Under the pieces are notes generated by a model. That model did no database searches. It was not told the DNA's origin and saw only the letters and a list, made by a program, of their open reading frames with translations. This document shows positions 1 to 55,434 of a stretch of DNA of 60,463 nt, piece after piece. The DNA comes from a virus: IMG/VR virus record IMGVR_UViG_3300029787_000012, positions 30,185 through 90,647 of that record; one strand, 5' to 3'. Each line of letters starts with the position of its first letter. The stretch's first letter is position 1. The position numbers and the translations under genes were made by a program.

Positions 1-2136
1 CGCTACGTTTGATAAGTTAAAGTTTAATGTATCTCCAACACTTATAGTTACTCCTGCATTGTTACCACTAACATTACCATTTCTATCAGTTCCATTTAAT
101 GTGTAATATGAAGCACTAGGTGCGGTTACTGTTATATTGTAAGTGTTTGATACTGAACCACCAGATCCCGCTGTAGATCCAGTTGTTCTCAACTGACATT
201 TCTTACCAACATTTCCTAGGAAATGAGAAGAGTCAGCAGGGTTGAACTTTATCTCTAAGAAATTATTTCCTGCTAAAGTTACATATGGATTGTCTATTAA
301 TTTCTTATCTTCTATACTATTAGTTGGATAGTATGTGGATGAACCTTTTCTTATATCTCCAGTAGCATCAGTGGTTCTACAGAAAGTTTTAAATGTTCCT
401 GTTAAATTATTTGTAGTGAGTGTGTATCCATTTGCACCACACCACGCCAGAGCAATACCAGCAACTAAAGGTGCTGAGAATGATGTACCACTTATAACTG
501 TATAGTTACTTGCACTTGTCTGAGGTGTGTTTGCTAACCAATCATATTGTGGAACTAAGATTCTAGAACCTGGTGCTACTAATGTTACGCCAGCACCATA
601 GTTTGAGAAGTTTGCCCATCTATCATTATACTCAGTTGCACCAACAGATACTTTATTTTGATTTGCATCTACATTGTTTATACCACCATTGGTATTGTCA
701 GCATATCCTGCAGTCCTTGAACCAGCAATACACTTTGCTTGTATAGGTCCTGCAAAGGCATCCGCACTATTTTTAAATCCATTACCAGCTGACCTTACAA
801 TAATAATATTGTATGTGCTTGATATAGTTCCTTCAATGTCGTCTAATAACTCTTCATCAGTTCCACTGTCGGAACCAGCGTCATTTAATTCAACGTAAGG
901 ATAATTCTGTGTTGGTATAGTAGGACCAAAGGATGAGTTGATAACAGCTGGACGATTACTACCTTTATAATTTGCATTACCACTGGTGTTGTGATCTATA
1001 ACTGCCTGATAAGCACTAAGTATGTTCGTATAAGATGCTGATAATGTACTATCAAATGCCTTAAGTGCATATATCTTTGATCTCTTTGACACGCCAGCAG
1101 TTCTCCCAGCCGCCAAAATAGCACAGTGAGTACCATGTCCATTGTCATCTTCGTTATTAGATCCATAACCACCAGCATAATGTGATAACTGGAATACTCT
1201 ATAGTTCTGTTGTTCTGTAGTACCGTTTAAGTCAGATACAAAGTTTGGGTCATATAGTTCAGAATGTAATGCTGCGTTGTTACCTGTAGGTCTACTTGCT
1301 CCTCTTACACCAGTATCAATGACGTATAGGTCAGCACCTTCACCTTGCTGACTGTAACTAAATTGTCTGTTTAAATATTGCCTATCTTGTTTTGTAATTC
1401 TATCTAAATGCCAGTAGTCAAATATGTTTATGGTACCATATTTGTTTGGAGACGCACCATAACGTCCCATTCCAGCAGTAGTTACATTGTAAAAATATAG
1501 TATAGATGGTGTCGCAGAACTTACTACTAATTCTACTGATGCACCAGCTTGTCCTGCAGTTCCTGATGTAGTTACACCTGTATTGAAAGATACTCCCCCA
1601 GTAGTATGTGTGCCATCTGGAGTTATAGAGAATAACATTGGGTGACCAGCGTTAGATGAATCACTCTGATCAAAAGTATATGTTGCTCCGTCTAAGAAAC
1701 CAGTTTGGTTTGCGTATGTTGTATATGAACCACCTTGTGTCTGTGAAAATACGAACAAATCGTTTCCACTCGTAGAGTCTACTTTGACATATATTGTACC
1801 TGTTCCACTTCCTGTTAAGGATCTAGTATTACTAGTTGTATTGTTTTCTCCAGTAGAGTTTAGAGTGGTAGACCCACTAGTTACAGTTGTTAACTGAGAC
1901 TCTTGTATTGGATTACAAGAAATTCTATTCTCATCCCATGTTGCTTTCTTAACAACATTTAATGCTCTGAGTTGATCCAAGATAACGCTCTCATATCTCT
2001 CAGGACAATCAAACGATACTATGGAAAAAGTTTTAAAATATTCTACAAAGGTTAAGTAACCATATAATTTCAAGATTGCTGACGTTGCAGAATCTAGACT
2101 ATAGTTATCACTGACCCTTACTATTACCCTCTTCAT
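1..2136 (-). CDS. Subtilisin-like (S8) serine protease with inserted cupredoxin-like domain, partial
   Basis: The gene starts at ATG 2136 and is open for 712 codons to the window edge, so its C-terminus is missing. Residues 1-75 resemble an I9-type propeptide or inhibitor domain. Residues about 105-215 form a beta domain of the cupredoxin-like type seen in other phage fibres (TYTFDQSDSSNAGHPM ... LYFYNVTTAGMG). The S8 catalytic domain follows with all key residues: Asp274 in VIDTG, His334 in NGHGTHC, oxyanion Asn452 in SAGNG, and Ser552 in SGTSFSAP. After about residue 600 comes another beta-rich segment. The gene is last in the minus-strand structural block, after fibre genes, which suggests a virion or late protein that cleaves phage or host-surface proteins. 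The family assignment is sure from the triad; the biological substrate is inference. No signal peptide is evident. Confidence 0.93.
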   Translation of the reverse strand, partial: MKRVIVRVSDNYSLDSATSAILKLYGYLTFVEYFKTFSIVSFDCPERYESVILDQLRALNVVKKATWDENRISCNPIQESQLTTVTSGSTTLNSTGENNTTSNTRSLTGSGTGTIYVKVDSTSGNDLFVFSQTQGGSYTTYANQTGFLDGATYTFDQSDSSNAGHPMLFSITPDGTHTTGGVSFNTGVTTSGTAGQAGASVELVVSSATPSILYFYNVTTAGMGRYGASPNKYGTINIFDYWHLDRITKQDRQYLNRQFSYSQQGEGADLYVIDTGVRGASRPTGNNAALHSELYDPNFVSDLNGTTEQQNYRVFQLSHYAGGYGSNNEDDNGHGTHCAILAAGRTAGVSKRSKIYALKAFDSTLSASYTNILSAYQAVIDHNTSGNANYKGSNRPAVINSSFGPTIPTQNYPYVELNDAGSDSGTDEELLDDIEGTISSTYNIIIVRSAGNGFKNSADAFAGPIQAKCIAGSRTAGYADNTNGGINNVDANQNKVSVGATEYNDRWANFSNYGAGVTLVAPGSRILVPQYDWLANTPQTSASNYTVISGTSFSAPLVAGIALAWCGANGYTLTTNNLTGTFKTFCRTTDATGDIRKGSSTYYPTNSIEDKKLIDNPYVTLAGNNFLEIKFNPADSSHFLGNVGKKCQLRTTGSTAGSGGSVSNTYNITVTAPSASYYTLNGTDRNGNVSGNNAGVTISVGDTLNFNLSNVA

Positions 2137-2690: not shown

Positions 2691-3401
2691 TTAGTGTAGA
2701 AATGCATTGAAGGTTAGGCGGTCTACATCCCATCCCTCTTGTCTAAAATATGGCGAGTGCCACATTCTACCTTCATAAACAAGGAGAGTATTGAATTCGT
2801 GTTTTTCAACATGGTACCTCTCCCAATGTTTAGTTTTGTATTTTGATGGATCAAAGTTAACATATGCATTTACTTTGTTAACTATCCGTTCTATCCGATA
2901 ATTTTTATCAGATGAAACAAACTCCTCATCATACTCAGCGTGTCTCCAAAATGCAGTACCGTTATCAGTATCTTCCATTTCTTCATCATAGTTTAATGCT
3001 AACACAGCAGCGTAGTGTGTGTCATCCGTATGAGGTGTAAGACTACACATTCTACATTTCTTTTCTACTTCGTAACTTTGAAATGTAAAATGAGAGAACT
3101 CTGGATCCTTCATTACCTTCTTAGATGCTTCAAAATAATTGTTTAAGATAAATCTAAACTGAGGTAATAATTGATTTGAAACATGTCCCAATCTAGAAAC
3201 ATAACCTGGCAAATTAGAAAACTCACCACCGACAGTAGATACATAATCTGCTGCCATAGCGTATGCCCTAACTTGCTCTGGGTTAACAAAGAAATTTTTT
3301 ATCTTAATAACTCTGTTCTTTGCTTTACCTATATGAAGTTGTTCTACTTCCCAATCTTTTGGGTGTAGGGAATTTAATATCTTTGGATCAATTATTTTCA
3401 T
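2691..3401 (-). CDS. 2-oxoglutarate/Fe(II)-dependent oxygenase-like protein
   Basis: The 236-residue protein carries the facial triad of 2OG-Fe(II) oxygenases: His124 and Asp126 in TPHTDDTHY, distal His215 in GRMWHSPYF, and a candidate 2OG-binding Arg228 in VDRLTFNAFL. The spacing and the C-terminal jelly-roll strand ending FNAFLH fit the DUF6445/prolyl-hydroxylase-like group common in marine T4-like phages. It should use 2OG, O2 and Fe(II) to hydroxylate a substrate. The substrate cannot be read from sequence. Its ATG overlaps the stop of the U32-methyltransferase gene in an ATGA arrangement, so the two enzymes are translationally coupled and may act on the same target. Family confidence is high; substrate is unknown. 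Confidence 0.85.
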   Translation of the reverse strand: MKIIDPKILNSLHPKDWEVEQLHIGKAKNRVIKIKNFFVNPEQVRAYAMAADYVSTVGGEFSNLPGYVSRLGHVSNQLLPQFRFILNNYFEASKKVMKDPEFSHFTFQSYEVEKKCRMCSLTPHTDDTHYAAVLALNYDEEMEDTDNGTAFWRHAEYDEEFVSSDKNYRIERIVNKVNAYVNFDPSKYKTKHWERYHVEKHEFNTLLVYEGRMWHSPYFRQEGWDVDRLTFNAFLH

Positions 3402-5182
3402 ACTGTTTCTAACTGAGATGCATTTCTGTCTTCACCAAAATAATCTTTAATCAATTTGTCTTTACGTAAAACAAGAACATGTAGTCCATTCCACCAGTGA
3501 GTAGGATTCTCTATGACTCCACTTAGTATCCTTCTTTCAAAAAATACTTCTAACTGGTTCTCTTGTATAAAAGTAACTGTACTCTCAACAACACCATCAA
3601 AGTTGGCATCATCTACTACGAGTATGAACTGATCATCTAAGAATGGAAGAACATGGTTCAAGTTGTTCATCTGTTCCATCATATCATGATTTGCATCATA
3701 AAACAATATGTTAGGTTTAACACCATCAAAGTCTTCTTCTGTTAGTTCATCAATAGATGCTTTGACAAATGCTGCATTACCATTCTCATACTTTTCCCAA
3801 TAGTTTACTAGAGTATCATATGGGTTCCCAACCTCTGTCCACCTTATATGGTCTGTCAGGGGTCTTACATTAGACTCTGAGAAGTCATCTACTCCAATAC
3901 ACTTAACATTATTATTCATAGTTGCAGCAAAGAATGTGCTTCCAACATGAGTTCCAAGTTCTAGATATACTGCATCCTCGTGAGAACATAGACTGTTAAG
4001 GAAATGTCTAACACGATTAGAAGTTAATCCCATCGGTTCAAATCCATCAGGATTGAAGTTAGAGTTCTCTTGCATACCGTCATCTATAGCATTCAATACT
4101 CTCTGTACATACTCATCCATATCTACAGGTCTATCTTGTTTTTTAAGATGTGCATTAACAACATTTTCACAGTAGTTGCAATCCCAACAATCAAATCCAC
4201 AAGTCTTTATCTTCTCTCTCCATAAAGCAATAGGACTATCTTTTACAAGAAGGTCATCCATATACTTATTAAACTCTGGAAACATTGTTTCTATTTTTTC
4301 ATTGCCCCAAGCAGAAATTATATCCATGGACTCTTTGAGTTTCATAGCATTTTCTCTACCGTGCATTTTAAATACATCAATACCAAGATCCAAAAATTCA
4401 TTCCAATCTGATTTCCAAGGAGGTAAATTAGCTGCTTTCAGTGCGTGAGAGTTATCTTCTATATCCCACTTAGCACAAGAGTTTGTACTGATAGGATCCA
4501 TAAAGTATTGTGGAGTATCTTTTGTTCTTGTGCTATTGAAATGATAGTGTTCGTCCATCATAGAACAACCACCCCAACAACCCTCGTTAGTTAAAATTGA
4601 TAACTCTACAGGTTTGCCAATAGATGCACAGTATTCTTTTGCTTTTTTTATTTTTAATAGAGCATTCTTATCTCTCATCAAATCTCTATCTAAATTGATG
4701 TAATGGAATCCTGCTTCCGCAAGAGACACAACTTCATTTGCTCTACTTACATTTCTAAGTATTGTATTCTTAATCTTTAATTCTGGAAATTCTTTTTGTA
4801 AGATTCCTGTAGCAACCCAACTAGTATGTGGTATAGTTACTATCTTGACACCCGCTTCATATAGTTGCCTAAAATTTTTGACAAACAAATCCAGATGTTC
4901 TAAGTCTGGTCTTACGTAGATATTATTGAACGTTGCTGATAATGGTATACCAGTCTCTTGATGAATAGCATATGCATTATAAAACAATTGAACTGGGTCA
5001 CCTTGAAATACATCACCCATAGCATCCTGATTAAAAGGAGGCATCCTACACGTGAAGTATAAGTCAACAATATATTCTTTATGTCTTTTCAACCAAGGTA
5101 TGAATACATCCTCAGCATATCTCGAATCAATCTTTGGGTTTATTGGAAGACTGAAGACGGATTTTTTCTTTGGGGATGTCAT
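3398..5182 (-). CDS. U32-like Fe-S-type domain fused to class I SAM methyltransferase
   Basis: The 594-residue protein has two parts. Residues about 15-365 form a TIM-barrel-like domain resembling U32-family proteins (LSATFNNIYV, AGVKIVTIP, AEAGFHYINLDRD). It has clustered cysteines that could hold an Fe-S cluster: C202 and C206 in NEGCWGGCSM, C236 in NSCAKW, and C328, C332, C335, C338 in TCGFDCWDCNYC. Residues about 385-575 are a class I SAM methyltransferase of the Methyltransf_24 type: motif I YLELGTHVGST at 406-416, acidic D431/D432, FYDANHD at 494-500, and DDAN at 524-527. The start overlaps the preceding gene by 56 bases and the end overlaps the 2OG oxygenase. The domain reading is from motifs; the combined reaction is unknown. 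The N-terminal part may not be a peptidase, since several U32 members (UbiU/UbiV, RlhA) act in O2-independent or RNA hydroxylation. Confidence 0.75.
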   Translation of the reverse strand: MTSPKKKSVFSLPINPKIDSRYAEDVFIPWLKRHKEYIVDLYFTCRMPPFNQDAMGDVFQGDPVQLFYNAYAIHQETGIPLSATFNNIYVRPDLEHLDLFVKNFRQLYEAGVKIVTIPHTSWVATGILQKEFPELKIKNTILRNVSRANEVVSLAEAGFHYINLDRDLMRDKNALLKIKKAKEYCASIGKPVELSILTNEGCWGGCSMMDEHYHFNSTRTKDTPQYFMDPISTNSCAKWDIEDNSHALKAANLPPWKSDWNEFLDLGIDVFKMHGRENAMKLKESMDIISAWGNEKIETMFPEFNKYMDDLLVKDSPIALWREKIKTCGFDCWDCNYCENVVNAHLKKQDRPVDMDEYVQRVLNAIDDGMQENSNFNPDGFEPMGLTSNRVRHFLNSLCSHEDAVYLELGTHVGSTFFAATMNNNVKCIGVDDFSESNVRPLTDHIRWTEVGNPYDTLVNYWEKYENGNAAFVKASIDELTEEDFDGVKPNILFYDANHDMMEQMNNLNHVLPFLDDQFILVVDDANFDGVVESTVTFIQENQLEVFFERRILSGVIENPTHWWNGLHVLVLRKDKLIKDYFGEDRNASQLETV

Positions 5183-20437: not shown

Positions 20438-20445
20438 TATTTATA
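20438..20445 (-). promoter_or_regulatory. T4-like late promoter before 177-aa gene
   Basis: The minus strand reads TATAAATA, 22 bases before the start of the 177-residue structural gene, at the end of the 2426-residue fibre gene. Confidence 0.72.
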
Positions 20446-23400
20446 CCTTAACTTTTGTAGTTGTGAATCTACCAGTAAAGGATGTTGATGAACTAGCAGC
20501 ACTAGATTTTGCTAGTGAGATGTTAACGTTGCTACCAGCAACAGCAATAGTTGCATCTACAAGGTCATTATCTGATGTTACTGAGTTTGTAACTGTGGCG
20601 TGTGCAGTGGTTCCTGCTGCAGCACATATAGTTGTGACTTCTAACATGTGAACTTTACCATCGTTACTTTCAATGGTAATTAATGTCTTAGCACCCTTAT
20701 ATGATGTCTTATCAAATTGTGTTATCGCTGCGTTAGCAGTAAAGGATGTTAATTGTCCACCTTCTACTCTACAGTCATCTAGTTCGACAAAATCACCTGT
20801 AGAATCAAAGACAGTTAGATATGATGTTGTTCCACCATTCCAACCTCTGTTAATTTTCCATGCACACTCAGATCCATTTGCATCTAAAGATATGAATGCT
20901 TTAGAATCTAGTCTTGTAACAAAGTCTTGTTGAATTACATCAGTACGAGCAAATGGTGATTTAGTATTTGATAGAGTTGTAACTGGGAATGTTACATCAT
21001 TTGCGGGAGTAGCACCACCAAGTAGATCACCAGTTATTGTTATAACTTCTTGAGCTTCATAGAAATCACCACCAGTTGCAATGTTTATCTGATCTATATT
21101 TCCACTACCATTAGTTGTAACATTGAATGTTGCTCCTGTACCTTCAAACTGAGCTACTGATACCACACCACTATATGATTGAGATACACCATAAGCACCA
21201 GTGCTTGCTGTCTCAGTTCCAATAGCGGATATTGTACCTTGTGTAGGAACTCCTCTAAATCTTAATCCATTAGAAATTTCAAAATCTTTCTTTGATCTAA
21301 AGGATGCTATATTAGCACCAGAAAATGTAACTGAGAATGGGTCACCAGCTGAAGTTCCGTTAAAGATTGCTGTGCCAGGTACGTCAAATTGTTTTGCGTT
21401 CTTAAGAACAAATTTATCTTTATCAAGTGATAAACAATTAACACCAGCTGCATAGAACTCAAATGTGTCTTCATCAGAACTAGGTGATACCTCAGTTAAG
21501 ATGTAAGTATCTTGGTCAACGTCACGAACACCACCAAGAGAAACAAAGTCGTTTCCATTGAAACCTTCAAACTGTAACTGTGTAGAGTTAAATCTAATTG
21601 CACCAGCTAATCTATCTGAAGTGCCAGGTCTTTGGTTTGTTGTACCAGATGGAATTACAAATGCACCTGTACTGTTTACCCAAACACTCTTACCACCACC
21701 AGGTTTCAATACAAGACCTTGACCTTGTGTATCACTTACAGTAACTGTGTTTCCAGTTCCAGAACCTATGGTTGTAGGATTTAAAGTTATATTATCACCA
21801 ATGTAATAGTTGTAACCTCTTGTTGCTGCTGTTGGAGTTACCGATGTAATTGCACCTCCAGAAACGACAACTGTAAATGTTGCTCCAGTTCCAAGTCCAG
21901 ATGTTCCAGTAGATGTAACCGCATTGTAACTACCATCAGTATATCCAGATCCAGTTCCAGTAACAGTACATGCTACAAGTTCACCGAATGATGCAGTTCC
22001 ACCAATATCAGCGTTATTGATTGTAGATCTCTTTATCTCTAATGCAGTATCAACTTTCAAATTACCTTTGATATCGGTATCACCAGTAATAGAGTCTATA
22101 GTAAACTGTGCTGTAGTACCGTCATTAACTTCAAATTGTACGTCTGTACCACCTTTAAGGATAAGATTTCCAGTTCCTTTTGGAGTAATGGTAACAGGAA
22201 TATTTGCATCTATACCAGCAGCAGTTATCTCAGCAGCATTATTAATTTGTAATCCAGATTGTACTGTACCAATGGTTGTTGTCTCAGCAGTAGGATCAAC
22301 TTTAAAGTATGGATTTGCTGCACCAAGCACAGAATCGACTATTAAATTATTTGCAGTCTCAAGTACAGTGTCACTCATCTTGATTTTCTGCACTCCTGCA
22401 CCAGAGTAACTTAACTCATTAGCAGCAGATCTATAGAAACCACTTCCAGTATCCGCAGCTAGTTGAATAGCTGGGGCAGCAGCAGTTCCTGCTTGTATTT
22501 TTAATTTAGCATTATCAACAAAGTTATCTGTGCCATTAGCAACTAGGTTTCCTGTAAGTGTTGATATCCCATTAACACCAAGAGTTGTTCCTATACTTAC
22601 TGCTGCTTGAGCTGTGATGTCTCCTCTGGTTGCTATAGTACCAGTGGTTATTGCGTCATTAGATACTGTACTGGTATTTCCAGTAGAACCCATTGTTAAT
22701 ATACCAGAAGCTGATATATTATACTCTGCAGATTTAAGAGCACCAGATGAAGCAATTGTTGTAACTTCACTAGTATCAATAGTTGCAGCTGTCAGTGCAA
22801 AGTTAGATCCATTATCACCCAAACCAGCAAAGTTTGTGGTGTCAAATACAACTGTTTGACCTGTAAAGAATGCGTTACCACCATCTGATAATACAACAGA
22901 ACTTGCATATCCAACTTTAGTAACAGTGAATTGGAATCCTGATCCACCACCAGCTCCAACATCAGCATCATCACAACTAAGAACATTTCCTATGTTGTAA
23001 CCAGAACCTGATGATACGATATCAGTTAATGAACTAATGCTTGTATCATTAGAGTTAATAGTATATGTGAAGTTATTTGTGTTACCAATTAAAGATGGGC
23101 TAGCAACTCTAACAACGTCTCCTGCTTTCCAACCAGTTCCTTGTCCACCTGTTGAGAATGCAACAGCAGTAACTGCACCACTAGCACCAACAGTAACATC
23201 TATCTGACCACCATCACCATAAACTCCTGCAGTTCCAGTTGTAATTGCGATGAAAGAACTCTCAGACATAGATTGTCCATGTTGAGTACAAGTATAGAAA
23301 ACTGTATTTGTGCTTGGAGTTGCGTTTTGTTTGATTACAAAATCAACAAAAGATCCAGCAGTACCAGGTGAACCATAAGTTCTAACACCAAAGTTTACGG

Positions 23401-26400
23401 TATCTGCTAATGATGTTCCATCTAATGATAATGGATGGTTAGTATTAGTGGTGTCAGACATATCAAAACGATATGTGTTACCTCTAACCATGGTTAAATT
23501 AGGTGCTTCAACTGCACCAGATCCTGTGTCTATAAAATATCTGTATGTCTCAATAGGTGCTGTATCTAAAACTCCACTACCGCCTGATGTAAAGGTTACA
23601 GTCTCACCTTGTTGGAAAGGTCCGTTAGCAATTGTTGCTAGATCATAGTAAGCAAAGTTACTGCCAGAATCAACATATGAGACAGTTGCAGTAGCACCAG
23701 AGGTTCCACCAGTTGCTGTATTACCTACGTTTACAGTTCCTGTAAATCCACCCCCCGCTACGAACTCAAATAATCCACGGTTCGCAACAGTTACTGTGTA
23801 AGTTGCAGCAGGAGCATTTGCATATATGTCAATTTGTTGATATGAAGATTCAGTACCACCAGTACCAGCATTGCTGATAGTTCCTGTTAGTCCAGCTACA
23901 GTTAGGGTTGCAGTAGCACCAGTTCCATCTCCACCAGTTAGACTTACGTTTTGATAAGTTCCTACAGCATATCCAGAACCACCAGATAAAATATTACCAC
24001 CAAAAGGTAATACAGTAATACTTGCTTGTGCTCCAGATCCAGAACCACCATTGATTAGAACTGTTGGTGCTGATGTATATCCGTCACCTCCAGAAGTTAA
24101 AGTTAATCCTGATACTTGACCTAATTCTGTGTCTAAAATAGCAGATGCAATAGCAGTAGTTTGACTAGTTCCTACGAATGATACTAATGGAATCTCTGAG
24201 TATCCATAACCACCACCATTCAAAGTAAGACTAGCGACTTGGTAAGTCATGTTTGCAACTGACAATGTTGCTCCAGAACCAGTTGGATCGTTAGTATTTG
24301 CAGTGACAGTTAAAGTTGGTGTAGTAGTGTAGACTGCGTTTCCAGTTGTGGATACAGTTGCAACTTGAGATCCAAGATTAACAGTAAGAGATGCGTCTGT
24401 AATTCCTGCACCTGTTTCACTGATAGTAAGAGATGGTGCAGCACCAGTTACATATCCAGATCCCGCATTATTAATCGTGATTGCTGAAATTGCTCCTGCA
24501 GAAACCGTTGCAGTAGCAGTAGCAGTTATACCTTGAAAGTTGTGTAATTCATTTGGAGTTGCAGCAGCAGTCAATGATATTGGAGATCCACCAGAAGTTG
24601 CTGACAACTGGATAGTGTTGTTGACTGTATCTGCATTTACAACATAATAAGAAGTTCCATTACTCAATCCATTTAAGTCTGAGTTACCATTATTATCATA
24701 AGTTACTTGATCACCATTATTAACCCAACTTGATGTAAATGTGATTGTATTTCCAGATGTAGATATAGCAGAGTTCGCATCAAATGCATTTGTTGGAGGA
24801 GCAGATAATGTTAGGTTAGGTGAAGTATATCCTGAACCACCACTTGTAATTGCAATCTGAGCAACTCGTGCAGCTGTGCTAAGACTAACTAAAAAACTTA
24901 TACTACCACTTACAGGAGTTAAGTTTGCTGATATATCAGGAGTTTGCTGGTATAGTCCATTACCTCCACTGCTAACAGTGATGTCTCCAATAGAACCATT
25001 GGTTGCTAGGGTTGCAGTTGCTGTGGCAACTTGATCTGGGTTTGATAGTAAAGGTGCTTGATATTGTCCTGCATCGTATCCTGTACCTTCATTAGAAATG
25101 GTAAGTCCAGTTGTAAGGTTTAATGCCTTTTTGTTGATAGCAAAATTTTTGTTGGAGAAAATACCATAAGAGGAGAAACCCGCTTGTGTGTAAGAACCAA
25201 CAGTAAACGCACAAGAAGAGTTACCAGTACCGATGATAGATGCTAATCTATTAGAAGCAAAGTAAATATTTTCTGGAGCAATAACCTGACCATTCAAAGT
25301 TATGTCTTCATCTCCAGCAGGGTCGAGGATTATCTTACCTGATGTGGATGTAACACTGTTACCCGCTAGTCGTAAGTTACCTGTTTCAACGTATGCAGGA
25401 TATATGTTTGTAGTACCAGTTGAGTCACTTAAAGTAATATTGGCAGCTGACTGAGCTGAAGATGTTGCAGCAAACTGTACGTTACCAGTAGAGGCATCAA
25501 CTGTAAGTGCATCACCAACTCTAAAGTCACCTTCGTGGTCTGTAGATGAATATAATACTTTACCACTATTAAGTTCTTCTACTTCATTTGCTTGAATAGC
25601 AAGTGAGGGGTCATTGGTATAGTCAGCACCAGAACCAACATAACCAAAGTTATGTCCAGAAAGAATAAGTTTTACACCAGCACCGTCTGCCTGTACACCT
25701 TTAGTACCGTATACACATGCAGATGCAGCTGAACGTAATTCAGCACCAAACTGAGCATAGTCAGCAGTTGTTACGACAGTAGCAGAATCACCACCGCTTG
25801 ATCTGATATCTGAAGTTCCACCAGAACTGTCAGTGAATGTTGTAGTTGCATCATTACCACCACCATGTAGTAATAATACAGTAAAGAGGTCTGATGAGAA
25901 CTCTCCAGTTGTAGGTGTAAAGTTACCAGAGTATGAACCTTGTGCTTTCTTAATTCTTATTTCATCAATATTTCCTGCAAATGCTTCTGTAGGAGATGAT
26001 GTGTCATAGTTAGAACCGACGACTACAGGTTTTGATGAACCATAGTCATTAGTGTCAGTGTAACTAGAACCTAATTCTGTTCCATCTAAGAATAGTCTTG
26101 TTGTTCCAGCACTTCTAGAAACAGCAACATGATACCAAGTATTGATTGCAAGAGTTCCACCAGAAATTTGAGATGAGTTACCTACTGCATAATGTAATGT
26201 AGTTCCATTCATATACACAGTGGGTGCTGTGTCCGTCGCAGAGGCGTTTCTTAGGTCAAAGATACGTTGTATACCAGAAACACTAGTAGGGCGTATAAAC
26301 GCTTCTAGAGTCCAGTTAGCAGTACCAAATCCAAAGTCACCATCAGCAGGAACTTGTAAGTTATCCTGAGTACCGTCAAATAGTATTGATCCACCACTGA

Positions 26401-27721
26401 ACTTACTCTGTGCAGTGTCAATTTGTGTATCACCAAATCTACTTAATATCTTTGCTGGTTTTGTTGTAGTTACAAATTCACCAGTTCCTTTACCATTGAT
26501 ATAGATGTAAGTTCCATCATTAGATGCAACAACACCACGACCAACTGCCTTCTTATAAGTTACATTACTAGAAGATATAGTACCAGAACCTGATGTAAAG
26601 GTTACGGTATTATTATCTACTTTAGTTACTTGGTAGAATCCATCTGTAGCACCACCACTAATAAAGTCTGCGTAGATATAATCATTAGATACTAGACCAT
26701 GTGCTGTTCTTGTTAAAGTAACAGTGGTTCCAGATCTTGTATATGTTCCTGACTGGAATCCATCTTCCAACTGGTATGCAACTTCACTTGTGTTGAATGT
26801 ACCAGCAGTACCACCTAATTTTAATCTTGTTTGTCCTGTGCCATATTTACCTGTAGCACCTTGAATACCTTGTACACCAATAGATGCAAAATAGTTGAAG
26901 CAATTTAACCACTCGACTCTAATACCATTAGTTGCAATTAAACCAATATTACCAGGTGTAATAAATGTACATTCGTTGAATAGTACAGAAGCATGTTGTG
27001 AGGATGAAGATATGTTGGCACCATCAAGCTTAGCACCACGTCCTGCATCTCCTTGTGCAAATCCATAAGGATCTGAACCAGATACTACACTACCTTTAGT
27101 TGTTACTGTAACTCTCTCAACATAAGGACTTGTAGTTGAATCTACTGATGTTCCTAATACAAAACCGTACCCAGTATCACCACTACTATCATATAAAAAA
27201 TCTTTAATTGTCAAATCAGATACTTGACAATCACCATTTAGAACTATTGCGTTATTGCTCTGCGTTGCATTCGTTGGTTTTATCTTTGTCGCACGTAAGT
27301 TTGTACCACGTACTGTAACACCATCAGGAATTGTTAGTGGAAATACTTCTTGGAATTCACCTGGTGCAATCATGATGCAGTCACCAGATGTTGCTTTGGT
27401 AAGTGCCTTTGTTATTGTAAGGAATGGAGTGTCTGGATGTTTACCATTAGCACTACCATGACCTAGCAAATCATTATCTGATCCTACTGATGCGACATAA
27501 TAAGTATTACCCTGACCATTCGTGATGTCAGCATTAAGCATCGCAGTGGTGATTTCACCAGTTGCAGGTTCAGCGTTTGCTACCTCGACTATATTAGAGC
27601 CGTCTCTGACGTAGATCTTTTTATCAGCGGTGTTTACCGCAACTTCACCATCAAGGAGTGTGGAAGTCGTCGGAGCCGCTGCTGCTGTGCTCGATCTCTT
27701 TAGCTTGATTCTCGTTGCCAT
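20441..27721 (-). CDS. Giant modular tail fibre with beta-helix, LamG and cupredoxin-like domains, 2426 aa
   Basis: Residues 1-55 (MATRIKLKRSSTAAAAPTTS, GEVAVNTADKKIYVRDG) resemble the Mtd N-terminal attachment domain. Residues about 75-300 are a right-handed beta-helix (YYVASVGSDND, GVTVRGTNLRATKI). About 310-370 is an HG...DFISGGATDG module. About 440-610 is a LamG-like jelly roll (FDGTQDNLQV, WTLEAFIRP, TWYHVAVSRS, IDEIRIKKA). From about 850 to 1400 there is a long array of GSGY beta repeats. About 1410-1505 is a cupredoxin-like domain with a full type-1 copper ligand set (NHPLSL plus FYTCTQHGQSM). Further GSGY repeats and a conserved C-terminal domain follow. The polysaccharide-binding look of LamG and the beta-helix suggests host-surface contact. 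It overlaps the preceding coiled-coil gene by 71 bases. Confidence 0.87.
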   Translation of the reverse strand: MATRIKLKRSSTAAAAPTTSTLLDGEVAVNTADKKIYVRDGSNIVEVANAEPATGEITTAMLNADITNGQGNTYYVASVGSDNDLLGHGSANGKHPDTPFLTITKALTKATSGDCIMIAPGEFQEVFPLTIPDGVTVRGTNLRATKIKPTNATQSNNAIVLNGDCQVSDLTIKDFLYDSSGDTGYGFVLGTSVDSTTSPYVERVTVTTKGSVVSGSDPYGFAQGDAGRGAKLDGANISSSSQHASVLFNECTFITPGNIGLIATNGIRVEWLNCFNYFASIGVQGIQGATGKYGTGQTRLKLGGTAGTFNTSEVAYQLEDGFQSGTYTRSGTTVTLTRTAHGLVSNDYIYADFISGGATDGFYQVTKVDNNTVTFTSGSGTISSSNVTYKKAVGRGVVASNDGTYIYINGKGTGEFVTTTKPAKILSRFGDTQIDTAQSKFSGGSILFDGTQDNLQVPADGDFGFGTANWTLEAFIRPTSVSGIQRIFDLRNASATDTAPTVYMNGTTLHYAVGNSSQISGGTLAINTWYHVAVSRSAGTTRLFLDGTELGSSYTDTNDYGSSKPVVVGSNYDTSSPTEAFAGNIDEIRIKKAQGSYSGNFTPTTGEFSSDLFTVLLLHGGGNDATTTFTDSSGGTSDIRSSGGDSATVVTTADYAQFGAELRSAASACVYGTKGVQADGAGVKLILSGHNFGYVGSGADYTNDPSLAIQANEVEELNSGKVLYSSTDHEGDFRVGDALTVDASTGNVQFAATSSAQSAANITLSDSTGTTNIYPAYVETGNLRLAGNSVTSTSGKIILDPAGDEDITLNGQVIAPENIYFASNRLASIIGTGNSSCAFTVGSYTQAGFSSYGIFSNKNFAINKKALNLTTGLTISNEGTGYDAGQYQAPLLSNPDQVATATATLATNGSIGDITVSSGGNGLYQQTPDISANLTPVSGSISFLVSLSTAARVAQIAITSGGSGYTSPNLTLSAPPTNAFDANSAISTSGNTITFTSSWVNNGDQVTYDNNGNSDLNGLSNGTSYYVVNADTVNNTIQLSATSGGSPISLTAAATPNELHNFQGITATATATVSAGAISAITINNAGSGYVTGAAPSLTISETGAGITDASLTVNLGSQVATVSTTGNAVYTTTPTLTVTANTNDPTGSGATLSVANMTYQVASLTLNGGGYGYSEIPLVSFVGTSQTTAIASAILDTELGQVSGLTLTSGGDGYTSAPTVLINGGSGSGAQASITVLPFGGNILSGGSGYAVGTYQNVSLTGGDGTGATATLTVAGLTGTISNAGTGGTESSYQQIDIYANAPAATYTVTVANRGLFEFVAGGGFTGTVNVGNTATGGTSGATATVSYVDSGSNFAYYDLATIANGPFQQGETVTFTSGGSGVLDTAPIETYRYFIDTGSGAVEAPNLTMVRGNTYRFDMSDTTNTNHPLSLDGTSLADTVNFGVRTYGSPGTAGSFVDFVIKQNATPSTNTVFYTCTQHGQSMSESSFIAITTGTAGVYGDGGQIDVTVGASGAVTAVAFSTGGQGTGWKAGDVVRVASPSLIGNTNNFTYTINSNDTSISSLTDIVSSGSGYNIGNVLSCDDADVGAGGGSGFQFTVTKVGYASSVVLSDGGNAFFTGQTVVFDTTNFAGLGDNGSNFALTAATIDTSEVTTIASSGALKSAEYNISASGILTMGSTGNTSTVSNDAITTGTIATRGDITAQAAVSIGTTLGVNGISTLTGNLVANGTDNFVDNAKLKIQAGTAAAPAIQLAADTGSGFYRSAANELSYSGAGVQKIKMSDTVLETANNLIVDSVLGAANPYFKVDPTAETTTIGTVQSGLQINNAAEITAAGIDANIPVTITPKGTGNLILKGGTDVQFEVNDGTTAQFTIDSITGDTDIKGNLKVDTALEIKRSTINNADIGGTASFGELVACTVTGTGSGYTDGSYNAVTSTGTSGLGTGATFTVVVSGGAITSVTPTAATRGYNYYIGDNITLNPTTIGSGTGNTVTVSDTQGQGLVLKPGGGKSVWVNSTGAFVIPSGTTNQRPGTSDRLAGAIRFNSTQLQFEGFNGNDFVSLGGVRDVDQDTYILTEVSPSSDEDTFEFYAAGVNCLSLDKDKFVLKNAKQFDVPGTAIFNGTSAGDPFSVTFSGANIASFRSKKDFEISNGLRFRGVPTQGTISAIGTETASTGAYGVSQSYSGVVSVAQFEGTGATFNVTTNGSGNIDQINIATGGDFYEAQEVITITGDLLGGATPANDVTFPVTTLSNTKSPFARTDVIQQDFVTRLDSKAFISLDANGSECAWKINRGWNGGTTSYLTVFDSTGDFVELDDCRVEGGQLTSFTANAAITQFDKTSYKGAKTLITIESNDGKVHMLEVTTICAAAGTTAHATVTNSVTSDNDLVDATIAVAGSNVNISLAKSSAASSSTSFTGRFTTTKVKV

Positions 27722-30158: not shown

Positions 30159-30359
30159 CTCTTTTATAACTAAACCTTTTACTATTTCTTTTAGTTCCGC
30201 AACTTCTGCCTGTAAATCAGTCAAAGTTTTGTCTTTTTTCTTTGCGTTCTCTCTTGCTTTTAAATAAGCATCATACCCAGAAACATCTGTATTTAGAATC
30301 GCATTTGACTCTGGATCTCTGCCCAATGATGTATGTCCTTCAACTGGCATTAATTCCAT
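30150..30359 (-). CDS. Small protein with C-terminal coiled coil, 69 aa
   Basis: The ATG overlaps the stop of the 2227-residue gene as TAATG. The N-terminus (MELMPVEGHTSLGRDPESNA) is a short extended segment that recurs in small cyanophage tail-operon proteins. The C-terminal half (KKKDKTLTDLQAEVAELKEI) is a Lys/Glu helix with heptad pattern ending in VKGLVIKEDK. It is likely an assembly accessory. No enzyme motif is seen. Confidence 0.75.
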   Translation of the reverse strand: MELMPVEGHTSLGRDPESNAILNTDVSGYDAYLKARENAKKKDKTLTDLQAEVAELKEIVKGLVIKEDK

Positions 30360-44500: not shown

Positions 44501-47500
44501 TCCATATGCAGTAAAGGAAGATGTTGATGCACCTTGATAAATTCTTTCTCCGATAGAGAAAGTTGCTGGTTTCATATATGCATTGATAACATCACCAAGG
44601 TCAATAGTTTCTAAAGTGAAAGCAGTCTGCCCTGTTGATATATCTCCTACAGGAGCACTAGTAAAGTTAATGAATGTTTCTGTATTTGCATTTGCAAGAG
44701 ATGATGCTAATCTAATTTGGTTATCTGCTAATCCATTTGCTGTAGTTGCTGCAATGGCATAGTAAACAGTATTAGTTGCTAATGGTTCTGGGAACTGTCC
44801 AGTAGTCTCTATAAGAGTTACTTGTGTACCTGAGGGTATCTTTGCATTATATGGGAAGTTCAATGTGCTGCTAGATTGTAATCCAACAAAACTATGACTC
44901 ACTTTTGCAGTTACAGTAGGTGCAGATGTAAATCCTCTACCAGGATTCTCAACAGTTACTGCCTGTATTACTTCATTCTCAATAATAGGTTTTAATGCAA
45001 ATAAAGAACCTTGTCCACCAGTAAGTACGATTTCTGGTTGAGATACAAAGTTTGAACCACCATTCACAACGTCAATGTAATCAATAACCTGAGTTCTAAT
45101 CAACTGTAAGTTATATGTTGTGTTTAGCGATGGTTTAAGTGTTCTATCATGTGAATAGTTGTATGTGATATTATCACCACTAATCTTAAGTATTTTTCCA
45201 AGGTCTGAAGATTTAAGTAATATAGATGCACCAGTTCCAGTTTTTTGTTCAATGTTGATAACAGGAGCACTTTGATATTGTATACCAGCTGCTTCTATAC
45301 CAATAGATGTAACACTCTGGTTTTGTATTGTTGCATTCAATACAGCATTAATTCCATTACCACCACTTACTGATATTGTTGGAGCAGATAAAAATCCAGA
45401 ACCTCCATTAGTAACTGTTACGGTGTCAATAGATGCATTGATAATAGTTGATATGGTTGCAGGATCAGCATGTGATAGTGTTTGAATTGTTATAGTAAAG
45501 TCTTCTGTACTATCACCGCCTGGTAACTTTGTACCATCAAAAGTAATTACATCACCTAGTGAATATGTACTACCGCCACCAGTAACAGATACTGTGTCTA
45601 TTCTTCCATTACCATCTGTTGTAAATGTAAATGTTGCTCCAGATCCACCAACGGGTGAAACAGTGGACTGTGTTACTCCAGTGGTTGTTGTAGTTGCAGT
45701 AAATGTTCCGTTACCCGCAGGTTGAGACGTAAGTGAGACAGTTGCGACAGATCCATAGTAAGGATCGTCAAATACGACACTTGGTGCGGATCTGTAATTA
45801 CTACCCGCATTTGTAACTGTCACAGAACTTAATTTACCACCCCCGCTTACAGCAGTGGCAACGATTGCTTGAGTTCCACTTATCGCTTGTATAGAACCTT
45901 GAGAGTCAGAACTGTATACATTATTGGTTGCAGCAGTTCCAGTACTGAACATGATGTAACCTTTATTACCAGCACCAGTTCTAGTGTTCTGTAATGGTTT
46001 TATTCTTAATACAGAGTTAACTGGGTTCCATGATATTACTTGAGCTCTTGCAGTTTGATTTCCTTGAGTTTCTTGAGATATAACGATCTCATTAGGTACG
46101 AATGAACCAAATACGTTTTGAAGCGTTAAATCAACAAAATCAGGTAACGTTACAACACCGTTAGGTAAAGATGAAGGATTATAACCAGATCCATCATTTG
46201 TAATTGATACACTAGATAATATTCCAGATATAGTTGCTACAGCAGTAGCACCAGAACCAGATCTTGTAGTTCCGTTGAATTTAGGTAAAGATGAGTAGTT
46301 TCTGCCAGGATCACCAACTGTAATTGTTTTTATACCACCTGTAGCATATATTGAGTTTGAAGCATATGATACGCCAACAGTATACCCTGCTTCTGGTTCT
46401 AGAGCAGTAATGTACTTAAACGTGGTATCTGTCTTTTCTGTAACCGTGTTTGTTCCAATTACAGGATCATTAATAGTTGTAAAGTAACTACCAGTTATTG
46501 CTCCCTGTAAATCGAAATAATAGAAAATACCAGGCAATCCTGTTATCTTAATCGTAATAGAGTTCTGTTCACTGGTTACAGAGTCTAATACTTCACTAGT
46601 AACGTTTTTATAAGTGAATATGTCTGTATTTGCTGGATCAAAGGTAAATGCTAACTTTTTACCCGCATTACTACTATCTGTAGTATCAAAGGTGTATGAG
46701 TGACCATCTATCAACTGTAACTTAGCTTCTTGAACATAAACTTCCGCAGTTGTGACATTTGCAGCTGCAGGAGTTGCAAAATTACTCTTTATCGTAAATC
46801 TACGTAAAGTTTCTGTTCTAATAACTGTATAGTCTGTCTTATTGTAAGACGTAGGTGAGACACCTGAGATATTGACTGTATCACCGATATTGACTTGATG
46901 TGCAAGATTCGTATGACATACTGCTTCTCTTTGTGTTTGTGTAAGTGTAATACTGAAACTAGAACCTCCTGCATTACCAAGGTTGATGTCTGCAGCAGAT
47001 ATTGTATCTCCTACGTTATATCCAGTTCCTGTTGAAGTAATCGTTACTGCAGTTACCGCATTTCCAGAAACAACAATAGTTGCTTGTCCACCAATACCAG
47101 ATCCACTAGTTGTTATAGGTACGTTGACATATGTGCCATTTGCGTAACCAGATCCACCAGTAATACTATTCCAACCACCTTGATATAGATTTCCATCTGT
47201 ACGTGTTCTTACATACGTCCATGTTAAGGTTCCGTCTGTTACAGTTCCAGAAGTGTGTGTAGGTGCATTTCCAGAACTAGAATCCGATGTTCCTGTATCT
47301 GCTGCTTTATAAACTCTGTTATCTACGTAAACAAGATCCTCTTTGTTGTACGCAGTACTCATTGTCCACGCAGAAAGAAGTTTTAAGCTCTGTAAGTCGA
47401 AATATTTGAAATGATACTTATTACTGATAATCTTACTGAATAGAGTTCTGGTATTTGCGTTATCAGTCACATCAACTGTAACTTGATCACCCACAAGTAA

Positions 47501-50500
47501 ATAATGGTTTGTAGATGTGTTTATTGTAGTAGTGTAGATGTCATCATACGCAGAAACCGCATTTGTAAGACTGGAGACAGTTACACCCTCAACTGTAGAC
47601 ACAGTTCCGCTAACTCCGTCTCCTCCAGTTCCTGTATTGTCAAATAACAGTCTATCGTTTACTTTATATTCTTTACCGCCACCTTCTACAAGATATTGAT
47701 CTATTCCCGCTGATGAGTATTTGTTTGTTGCAGATACAACAAGAGAATCTGCTAAACCACCTCTAATAGTAGGATAGTAACTATAGTATCCAATACCATC
47801 TTCAAGATACGCTAGATTCTCTCCAGTCTCCATAACAATTAATGTTGTAGTATCTTCCATGGATAAGAAGAAGTCAACTTTGTTATCAAGTTCCTTTCTC
47901 TTCGCTACAATATTATCCACACCTATAAATGGTTCTCTGTAACGTATAGCGTCTTCTGTGAAGTTTTTCTGCAAACCATTTCCGTTCCAGTTTACAGCAG
48001 CTGCTTCTCCGTAGAAATTAGGTCCTACAAAGTATGGAAACGCTGGTTCCCCTGCGGAACCTTTAATTGTAGCAAAATATGCATACACTCCATTTGGAAA
48101 CTCTGGAGTGACGCAGAATCTACCATTATATTCATCTAAATCACCTAAACCTTGTACATATTCATAATCTTCAATATAAGTCCCTAGAGGGTCGTTGAGA
48201 CCGCTTAGAAGGGCACTTCTACCATTCTTTACTCTATAACTACTAACTATCTGTTTATATGAGTTATATGGTGCTGCGTTCTCTGGATCAACGTAACCAT
48301 AAGGTCCGTATATTGGGTGTCCATCAAATGCCCATCCAATAATAGGAGAGTGTGCTGTAGGGTTAAGTTCCGTAAGAGCAGAGCTGATATTATCCTTTGT
48401 AAGGAACCTAAGCTTCTTAGGGTTGTGCATATATCCATATTCCCCGCCATATATCAAATAGTTTTCACCTTGTATTGACGCACCACCCGCAGTATCCGTA
48501 ACTTTACGCTCTGTGAATGATGAACTTCCCAATTCTGCTTGTGTTGCAGCTTCATTAAATGATAATTCCGTAAGGTTGGTTTGGAATGTTGCACCAGAAC
48601 CAGGATAAACAATAGTCACTGTAGTAGCACCAGCTGTATATCCCGCACCTTTGTTCGTAACATTAACAGAAGTAACAATATTTGTACCACTATCAACAAC
48701 AGCAAACGCGGTAGCACCAACTCCATCACCTGTAATGATGACATCAGGTGCACCATAATATCCAGTACCACCAAATGTGACGATTATACTTTCTATCTTT
48801 CCATTTAATATTGATGGATACGCAACAGCACCGCTACCAGTAATCAAATCAATAGTTGGTTCAAATGTATATTGACTTCCTGCATCAGTAATTGTGATTG
48901 TATCTACAGGTCCTCTACAGATTGCTGTAGCAGTAGCACCGCTTCCTCCTCCACCAGTCAGTGTGACAGTTGGAATACTTGTATATCCAGAACCACCTTG
49001 CACCACATTAATACCAGTAACTGCACCATCAGTGATTTGTGCTGTAGCAGATGCTTGATTATCTGATGTAGCTCCACCACCAGTAATAGAAACAACTGGT
49101 TGAGTTATGTATCCTGTACCACCGTCAGTAACGTTGACTGCTGTTACGGATCCTGTAACAGTTACAGTCGCTGCAGCGGACTCACCTTCATATGTCCAGT
49201 TAACAGTTCCGAGTGTCACTGTACCAAGTGTATGAGTAGGATGTGTTGTGGTAGAAGTTACACCAGCAGTATCCGCAACGTATCTGTTTCCATTATATTT
49301 TACTCTAGTTGATGATGCATATGTTGCACCTAATTTATGATCTGCTTCAAATTGTACTGTGGGTGGGTTTGTAATGTCGTATCCTTCACCACCAGTGGTC
49401 TTAGTAATTGATAATAGACCACCATACTTCTTAATACCCTCTCCTTTGTATGAAAAGAAAGGAACTCCGTTTACACCAAGACCAACTTGTCCTACAGGAG
49501 TTGCAGTCTTTGTACTTTTGACTGAGGGTGTGATTGGAATGCGTTTTAAGTACCTTTGGTTGCCTGGCACTAAATCAGTGGAAGCAAAAGGTCCTATCTT
49601 ATGAGTTGGTATACCTGTACTAGCAACAATGACGTCTGATGCGGATTTGTAAGTATTTTGTACGTCTCCTGTGAATTTATTGACTGCATTGTCGATTGAA
49701 CCATAATCACTCTTTCCAAATGCAAATTCTCTTGCAATATAAAACTCATAACCACTTATGCCATTAGCAGGGGTTGTAGTAAAGTTGAATTCAAAAGTAA
49801 AGTCATCAACAATACCTACAACATCGTGATTATTGTTATAGATGTCCTCAGGTGCATTTAGGATTCTAATTACGTCATCTCTGACCAATCTATGCTTCTC
49901 TTTAGTAGTTACGGTACATTTTACCGAACCATCAGCATTGATGCTTCCTAGGGTCGCTGAGTCGCCTCTGAGAGCACGTCTGACATTATAGATGAAGCTA
50001 TCATATATTGGATCAAGACTATCGAAGCCAGGTGCAGTGGGTGTGGTGACTTTTGAGTCTGGTAAGTAATATCTTCCACCATCATTAAGTGTAACCCCTC
50101 TAGTTCCACCAAATACCTTTAATTGTATCTCTGATCCGTCTATATTAGAATTACCGTAGATTTTAAACGCAGCAAACACTTCTTGTCCTGCATCATGGGC
50201 AACATTGACTGTATTTTCCCTAGCACGACTACATCCTAAGAATTGAGTAACAGTTTTGTCGGTATAAGTGATTATTTCGTCTTCTAATCTAAATCTACCG
50301 TTTTGTTGTGGCCATCCTAGTGTAGAATCAACTGTTACTACATCATCTATTAAATTAGCACCTAAATCCGAAGATAATACAGTTTTATACGGTGTAACAA
50401 ATGCACCAGATGAATTATTAGTATCTACGTCAATTTCAAAGATAGATCCTTGAGGAGTAAAGACTTCTACAACTCCTTTTACGTAAATACGTGCTGCTTC

Positions 50501-54936: not shown

Positions 54937-55404
54937 TCAAGTACAAACATATCCTACAACATTGTCTGGTAGACCATCTAATCTTACCATGTCTTCTATC
55001 TTATCTGCATACATCAATACCTTATCAATACGCTCTTGCATATTCACTGCTATCTTCTCTTTCTTCCACTTAGTGTATGCTTCCTTCTGACACCAGAGAC
55101 TATAGAAGGTCTCTTTGTTGTCTGTAACTTCGTGAATGTCAAAGTATCTCTTAGTTATCTTCTCAAAAGGACGTTCTTTCATATATTCAATATCTACACC
55201 AACGTTCTTTGTGGATACTGCAACTACTGTATGACTATCAGTGTCTGACTTGTTCCAATATATCTGTACAGGTTTCTTACAGTTCAAAGTATAGTTCGGT
55301 AAGAAATCTTTGATGGCGGTTTTGACTAGGTTATCAGTAGACGCAATCGTATTACTGTAAAGGTATACTGAGGTGGTTTTGTTGGAAAAAATCTTAGAGG
55401 GCAT
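54937..55404 (-). CDS. 4'-phosphopantetheinyl transferase (Sfp/AcpS superfamily), 155 aa
   Basis: The protein shows the core PPTase signature: VGVDIE (Asp71 and Glu73, Mg and CoA ligands) and, 31 residues later, LWCQKEAYTKW with Glu108 (third Mg ligand) and Lys107/Lys112. A preceding strand (SDTDSHTVVAVS) matches the SHS-type segment of Sfp. Such enzymes move phosphopantetheine from CoA to a conserved Ser of carrier proteins (ACP, PCP). At 155 residues it lies between AcpS (about 120) and Sfp (about 225), suggesting a reduced N-terminal half. The frame is open to GTG 55434; ATG 55404 is preferred because it starts at the first beta strand and skips a Phe/Lys-rich tract. A structured 210-base leader precedes it. 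No carrier protein gene is in the window, so a host ACP is the likely target. Confidence 0.83.
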   Translation of the reverse strand: MPSKIFSNKTTSVYLYSNTIASTDNLVKTAIKDFLPNYTLNCKKPVQIYWNKSDTDSHTVVAVSTKNVGVDIEYMKERPFEKITKRYFDIHEVTDNKETFYSLWCQKEAYTKWKKEKIAVNMQERIDKVLMYADKIEDMVRLDGLPDNVVGYVCT

Positions 55405-55434
55405 TTTTTGGAAAAAAAATATTTTTAATATCAC

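Follow-up and report, generated by a model that had tools for sequence, protein, structure and literature searches.

Phage tail fibres with iron at HxH motifs have been described in excerpts of one article, for gp37 of T4 and for Alteromonas phage R22Y (PMC11705849), and petE is reported in excerpts of another to be present in 10 of the 16 cyanophage genomes compared (PMC3037559). Excerpts of a third article leave plastocyanin unmentioned and name copper only for the microscope grid (PMC10665884). We have analysed a stretch of 60,463 nucleotides, hereafter the window, which is part of the 90,647-base virus record IMGVR_UViG_3300029787_000012 (positions 30,185 to 90,647). One of its proteins, of 2426 amino acids (aa), carries a cupredoxin-like domain of about 110 aa with a candidate type-1 copper site. 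As in the plastocyanin/azurin family (PF00127; plastocyanin, amicyanin), the candidate ligands come in the order His, Cys, His, Met, the Cys and the second His are spaced as Cys-x2-His, and a G-[DN]-T strand precedes the first His. On the whole, we consider it fairly probable that this domain represents a divergent cupredoxin module, that its type-1-like site is intact, and that it would hold copper and form a metal-locked knob of a fibre or baseplate.

The domain and its four candidate ligands

A sequence-only reading of the window had proposed a type-1-copper-like site built from two motifs, and both are found on the minus strand where it had put them, NHPLSL at residues 1428-1433 (23423-23440) and FYTCTQHGQSM at residues 1475-1485 (23267-23299), its span of 23260-23440 agreeing to within three residues. 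It had assigned residues about 1410-1505 to the domain; a domain is indeed present there, but it starts nearer to residue 1391 than to residue 1410 (Table 1). No plus-strand open reading frame of at least 100 aa overlaps the 23260-23440 stretch.

The four candidates, His1429, Cys1478, His1481 and Met1485, follow each other in the order of type-1 copper ligands, and the Cys and the second His share one loop, as such ligands do. The pattern C-x2-6-H-x2-4-M occurs a single time, in this domain, across the 19 minus-strand window proteins scanned, and composition alone predicts about 0.006 occurrences of C-x2-H-x2-4-M in the 2426-aa protein. Cys1478 is the sole Cys between residues 837 and 1583 of this protein, and His1429 and His1481 are the sole His between residues 1060 and 2358. 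Given the rarity of the motif, the sole-residue context and the invariance of these residues among orthologues, a chance motif was set aside.

Conservation, joint presence and loss of the ligands

The alignment of the domain across marine phages, which the sequence-only reading had suggested as a check, came out in favour of the site. In 18 distinct orthologue rows (29 before identical ones were dropped; P-HM1, P-HM2 and MED4-213 included; pairwise identities down to 35%), 17 of 101 core columns never vary, and these include the four ligand positions, an outcome with a chance probability of about 8e-4 for four named columns if columns are assumed to be independent. The window and L001 have an identical domain and differ at the ends only. 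The first His and C-x2-H-x2-3-M are kept in all 12 named-phage copies read, which were picked for spread among 123 matching records. In Prochlorococcus phage MED4-213 (L260), the annotated genes are broken around the domain, yet the domain reads through with all four ligands. When loci were collected with the ligand-free seed GNTYRFD (the best 80 of at least 490 relatives, ranked by match to an intact query), all four ligands were present in 47 of 48 distinct contexts, the sole exception, L107, having a longer Cys-His spacing and no Met. For all unsplit copies, the four ligands are kept in 100 of 106 distinct contexts, a count that omits the ligand-free copy of a 4261-aa protein (see below) and the split second copies of L130, L118, L102 and L116.

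Many relatives have a second copy, the halves of which are separated by an inserted stretch. When 35 such split copies are collapsed into 29 distinct pairs of first-His context and Cys loop (the second copies of the same four loci being omitted here too), the Cys is present in 13 of the 14 pairs with the first His and in none of the 15 without it (Fisher, 2.1e-7). This value overstates the association, because the sequences are related and independent events are few, the "no site" label requiring three changes on a tree of 33 rows that was built with the ligand columns included. The one exception is L120, in which the His is kept and the Cys lost, and in the His-less pairs the second His is likewise missing from the loops listed. 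The rule is looser beyond split copies, as the subtilase copies L062 and L065 have the first His without the Cys. A longer-loop variant, C-x5/6-H with no nearby Met, is found in the split copies of L046, L052, L057, L059, L113, L127 and L141.

The presence or absence together of the first His and the Cys, two residues distant in sequence, argues for a metal site as such. It goes against a rather unlikely alternative, in which the domain would be a metal-free beta-sandwich of a modular fibre, immunoglobulin (Ig)-like or carbohydrate-binding, with the His, Cys, His and Met kept for packing or for binding of host glycans. This alternative also fits poorly with a ligand loop that varies around a fixed Cys, His and Met, but it is favoured by the existence, in the same record, of two homologous paralogues without the full ligand set.

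These two paralogous copies had been recognised by the sequence-only reading as one in a subtilase, with the Cys and the second His replaced, and one in the 4261-aa protein, with the ligands lost. Both descriptions are right in sequence, and both copies are homologous according to the profile of alignment A2, which contains neither of them (Table 1). In the 4261-aa protein, a Lys replaces the first His and the Cys/His loop is absent. The subtilase, with a Peptidase_S8 domain (E 2e-26), is encoded by the open reading frame 1..2136, which is open at the window edge and corresponds to a 1968-aa open frame in the full record; the full protein has a second copy, outside the window, with the ligands His, Cys, His and Gln (L063). 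The subtilase copy of the window has probably lost its site, because L064, a relative from a metagenome-assembled genome contig that is 62% identical to it, keeps an intact CTAHSNM loop. The site is lost as well in another relative, L065 (YNVSNSDYG). This subtilase-like L065, on a contig titled Prochlorococcus, also contains stretches that resemble copper proteins, at residues 738-825, 883-963 and 971-1040 of its open frame; all four ligands are present in the second of these, which reaches 19.0 bits, the Copper-bind cut-off being 21.2.

A site of the same shape could alternatively have zinc, iron or another ion as its natural metal and serve as a structural staple, which we regard as unlikely. 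Sequence is blind to the identity of the metal, and the fourth ligand drifts, as judged from the split C-x5/6-H copies without Met and from the Gln that stands for Met in the second subtilase copy; marine phage fibres have, moreover, already been discussed as iron ligands through HxH motifs (excerpts of PMC11705849). Such motifs are, however, absent from the 2426-aa protein, no pair among its 14 His being two residues apart, and an HxH iron site was set aside. The order and spacing of the His, Cys, His and Met are also those of the type-1 copper arrangement, and Gln in place of Met is known among blue copper proteins, which again counts against a metal other than copper.

Predicted fold and probable relation to cupredoxins

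Two structure models of the domain were obtained, from 34 sequences (model 1; predicted local distance difference test, pLDDT, 82.7) and from 75 sequences (model 2; pLDDT 87.8; predicted template modelling score, pTM, 0.80). In model 2, His1429 stands before strand 46-50, Cys1478 ends strand 85-93, His1481 and Met1485 are in a loop that includes a helical turn, and strand 105-109 comes last, a placement that corresponds to the cupredoxin arrangement. Strand order and ligand places in this model thus fit such a fold. When model 2 is compared with known structures using VIA-align, the top row is a stretch of the copper nitrite reductase of Hyphomicrobium denitrificans (residues 35-137; 2dv6, 6tfd), which we take to be its blue copper domain (Z 6.9, 98 residues, 3.4 Å, 20% identity), and 12 of the 15 first rows are copper nitrite reductase, laccase, CueO (six rows) or factor VIII, the A domains of which are cupredoxin-like. 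Copper proteins at the top of this list argue against a metal-free sandwich. With model 1, the unrelated Shewanella protein SO1698 (Z 7.2) ties for the first place with nitrite reductase (6.8). Against predicted viral proteins, model 1 gives 30 matches at E <= 0.001, including cyanophage fibre and structural proteins.

With hhalign, the family (166 sequences, selected for having the first His and the Cys, which makes both invariant by construction) matches a set of 28 Copper-bind proteins at 94.5% with a score of 44.4, each of the four ligands falling on its counterpart; the reversed control scores 15.0 and the best of 30 column shuffles 19.8. This pairing of the quartet with that of plastocyanin is a further point against a metal-free sandwich. 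Of the 28 Copper-bind proteins, 27 come from the phylum of the L065 genome and one from that of L066. Subsets of the family give lower values, 71% for nine orthologues and 36% for twelve cyanophage-type rows. Alignment A2 was filtered in the same way, with the same consequence for the invariance of the first His and the Cys, and two of its 76 listed copies were excluded for unusual loops (one L107, one L065). When A2 is compared with PDB sequences at E <= 10, 8 of the 13 rows listed are plastocyanin, pseudoazurin or copper oxidase (E 0.28-0.6), none of them significant alone. Copper-bind is the Pfam family matched by most members of A2 (9 of 75, weakly, with a best E of 0.0047), and the leading NCBIfam families are plastocyanin (4 of 75) and amicyanin (2 of 75), also weakly. 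The SUMO row that heads the A2 list (E 0.0022) was considered as noise, as its two stretches alone give E 16 and 5.1, and so were the ubiquitin-like and Ig rows matched by A1.

The type-1-copper-like reading is thus supported at the level of sequence and predicted fold, through the order and spacing of the ligands, the conservation of the quartet, the joint presence of His and Cys, the plastocyanin profile match and the copper proteins prominent among the structural neighbours of model 2. The main evidence is the quartet shared in its sequence context; common descent with cupredoxins appears likely, the remaining sequence leaving it unsecured.

Several observations weigh against a copper-holding cupredoxin module. 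Every VIA-align Z value is below 8, which is middling by the tool's own scale, and Foldseek finds no PDB chain at E <= 0.001 with either model. Its best rows for model 2 are Ig-like and cohesin domains (E of about 0.3), as would be expected of a metal-free sandwich. Masking the first His, the Cys and the second His drops the plastocyanin match to 16%, and masking the Met region too leaves 1.6% and a score of 15.9, against a maximum of 14.4 for masked shuffles; because the match collapses in this way, most of the plastocyanin profile signal comes from the ligands themselves. The window domain itself has no Pfam or NCBIfam match at E <= 1 and does not reach the curated cut-off of PF00127 (Copper-bind), and unrelated families weakly match a few members too, CBM_4_9 matching 6 of 75, which again favours the metal-free sandwich. 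Free copper is scarce in the cytoplasm, in which phage tails are produced. Finally, the role is informed solely by the protein in which the domain sits. A recent capture of a host plastocyanin was set aside, since the masked profiles barely match the Copper-bind set (petE itself being unaligned).

In the copper-holding explanation that we prefer, the all-beta domain would hold one copper ion between the His that precedes the fifth model strand and the Cys-x2-His-x3-Met loop that joins the last two strands, as in plastocyanin and amicyanin. It would be a module of the virion fibre/baseplate network of a T4-like phage of the P-HM2 (Prochlorococcus) type. The copper would most likely be picked up after release into seawater, and the ion would tie together the loops at one end of the domain, so that a long fibre would bear a stiff knob locked by metal. 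The choice of copper, the exposure of the domain on the virion, its loading after lysis and the locking role are what we infer.

A different role for such a site, which we hold to be very unlikely, is that of a redox-active centre for electron transfer or redox sensing on the virion surface, for instance with an exchange of electrons with the host envelope triggering attachment. Type-1 sites are mostly electron carriers, in keeping with this role. That many cyanophages carry plastocyanin genes (excerpts of PMC3037559) points the same way, but the site can disappear from paralogous copies in which the domain persists, and a redox partner, for which no search was made, is not known. This proposal shares the copper site with the metal-locked knob and differs from it in role, so that the two are compatible and not exclusive. 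More generally, it is conceivable, at somewhat less than even chances, that blue-copper-type centres are borne on the fibres and baseplates of many marine tailed phages, whose particles would then add a copper-binding and possibly redox-active constituent to seawater, and that each domain keeps or drops its site as a unit.

Phage context and comparison with known systems

The 2426-aa protein has a full-length match to phrog_32294 ("baseplate wedge subunit") and occupies the position of P-HM2 PHM2_094 ("gp7") within a similar gene order. Its designation as a tail fibre by the sequence-only reading is reasonable in view of its LamG domain and of a sub-threshold Mtd_N match (Table 1), but uncertain, since in the databases the family goes by "baseplate wedge subunit" or "gp7"; the protein is best described as adhesin-like and associated with the fibre or baseplate. 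The LamG domain suggests a glycan-binding fibre, and in this respect the context favours the metal-free sandwich.

Table 1. Positions, in the window, of the domain, its candidate ligands, its paralogous copies and the protein that carries it.
Feature	Position	Strand	Basis
Cupredoxin-like domain, residues 1391-1499 (~110 aa)	23225..23551	minus	Profile match E 1.7e-30 (profile includes the window sequence itself); model pLDDT 87.8, pTM 0.80, nine strands
First His ligand candidate, His1429, just ahead of a strand	23435..23437	minus	Invariant in 18 orthologue rows
Cys ligand candidate, Cys1478, at the very end of the long penultimate strand	23288..23290	minus	Invariant in 18 orthologue rows; model strand 85-93 ends here
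Second His ligand candidate, His1481, loop after the Cys	23279..23281	minus	Invariant in 18 orthologue rows
Met ligand candidate, Met1485, helical turn before the last strand	23267..23269	minus	Invariant in 18 orthologue rows; spacing C-x2-H-x3-M
Degenerate copy in the subtilase; Asn in place of the Cys and Thr in place of the second His, first His and Met retained	1459..1707	minus	A2 profile E 9.4e-22; alignment
Copy without ligands, residues 1545-1621 of the 4261-aa baseplate protein	46505..46735	minus	A2 E 3.4e-6 (1545-1582); iterated profile E 1.9e-10 (1545-1621; may have taken this copy in during iterations)
2426-aa tail fibre/baseplate-associated protein carrying the cupredoxin-like domain	20441..27721	minus	Open reading frame; phrog_32294 match; P-HM2 PHM2_094 position
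Laminin_G_3 (concanavalin-like) domain, residues 449-590 of the 2426-aa protein	25952..26377	minus	Pfam E 1.7e-17
Mtd_N-like N-terminal segment, residues 5-42 of the 2426-aa protein	27596..27709	minus	Pfam E 4.7e-4, sub-threshold at 20.5 bits (cut-off 26.3)

The minus strand of the window carries a T4-like structural module. It encodes gp25-like and gp6-like proteins, the 4261-aa protein, with matches to PHROG baseplate wedge families, a 504-aa protein with a match to Pfam Phage-Gp8, and proteins of 2227, 2426, 177 and 3459 aa. In P-HM2 (Prochlorococcus), the order is gp8, a 6669-base gene, small genes, the "gp7" gene PHM2_094 (7272 bases), a 534-base virion structural gene and a very long gene. 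The 4261-aa protein also bears a YHYH domain (residues 974-1102; 48062-48448, minus strand; Pfam E 1.1e-30). Elsewhere on the minus strand, a small protein (54937-55434) has an above-cut-off Pfam match to 4'-phosphopantetheinyl transferase (ACPS; E 2e-7) and could possibly be a phage-encoded carrier-protein activator. Next to the tail genes, the stretch 2691-5182 encodes, also on the minus strand, a DUF6445 protein (E 3e-18) and, adjoining it, a protein of 594 aa that ends in a Methyltransf_24 domain (E 5.8e-6).

The domain is a common, unannotated family in fibre and baseplate proteins of marine phages. With tblastn, it matches 123 phage records at E <= 1 (duplicate GenBank/RefSeq entries included), 26 of them over at least 80% of the domain; by name, 83 are Synechococcus, 15 Prochlorococcus and 15 "Cyanophage", with a few Methylophilales, Pelagibacter and other marine phages. 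Three scans of viral contigs gave 60, at least 490 and at least 583 confirmed relatives, of which 60, 80 and 80 loci were retained. Among the 75 members scanned, PHROG matches are most frequent for a "tail fiber protein" family (75), followed by an unnamed family (68), a "baseplate wedge tail fiber protein connector" (66) and, with 60 each, a "baseplate wedge subunit" and a second "tail fiber protein". No relatives were found in bacterial and archaeal genomes scanned with the A1 profile. A scan of genome contigs with the subtilase copy gave seven loci, with the titles Dehalococcoidia, Prochlorococcus, SAR86, marine archaea and Pelagibacteraceae; some of these are likely to be viral, because the L070 contig equals the virus contig L150 in length and matches it identically. 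A literature search, in which few subscription journals were covered, returned no title or abstract describing a cupredoxin-like domain in a phage tail protein. The family is nameless in both the Pfam and the NCBIfam scans and is a new target for annotators. Should the site bind copper, phage tail proteins would have a metal centre other than the HxH iron sites, within a family that matches those 123 phage records, and marine phages would enter copper chemistry, with a testable handle on attachment.

Close counterparts are found in P-HM2 ("gp7", PHM2_094) and P-HM1 (PHM1_095), the proteins of which are of similar length and have all four ligands in the domain; the identity in the domain is 48% and 42%, respectively, and these proteins are named baseplate wedge initiator, the domain being left unmentioned. 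Cyanophage petE encodes a blue copper protein (PMC3037559) but, in the usual view, it is a host-derived metabolic gene and not part of the virion, in which it differs from the phage domain. The HxH iron fibres likewise have a proposed metal site in a tail fibre, but with HxH pairs instead of His, Cys, His and Met (excerpts of PMC11705849). The nitrite reductase stretch, similar to model 2 at a middling Z value, differs in being part of an enzyme. Finally, the plastocyanins compared have the spacing C-x2-H-x4-M, whereas that of the phage domain is C-x2-H-x3-M, with scores below the curated Copper-bind cut-offs or no match, and, unlike plastocyanin, a small electron carrier, the phage domain is embedded in a long structural protein.

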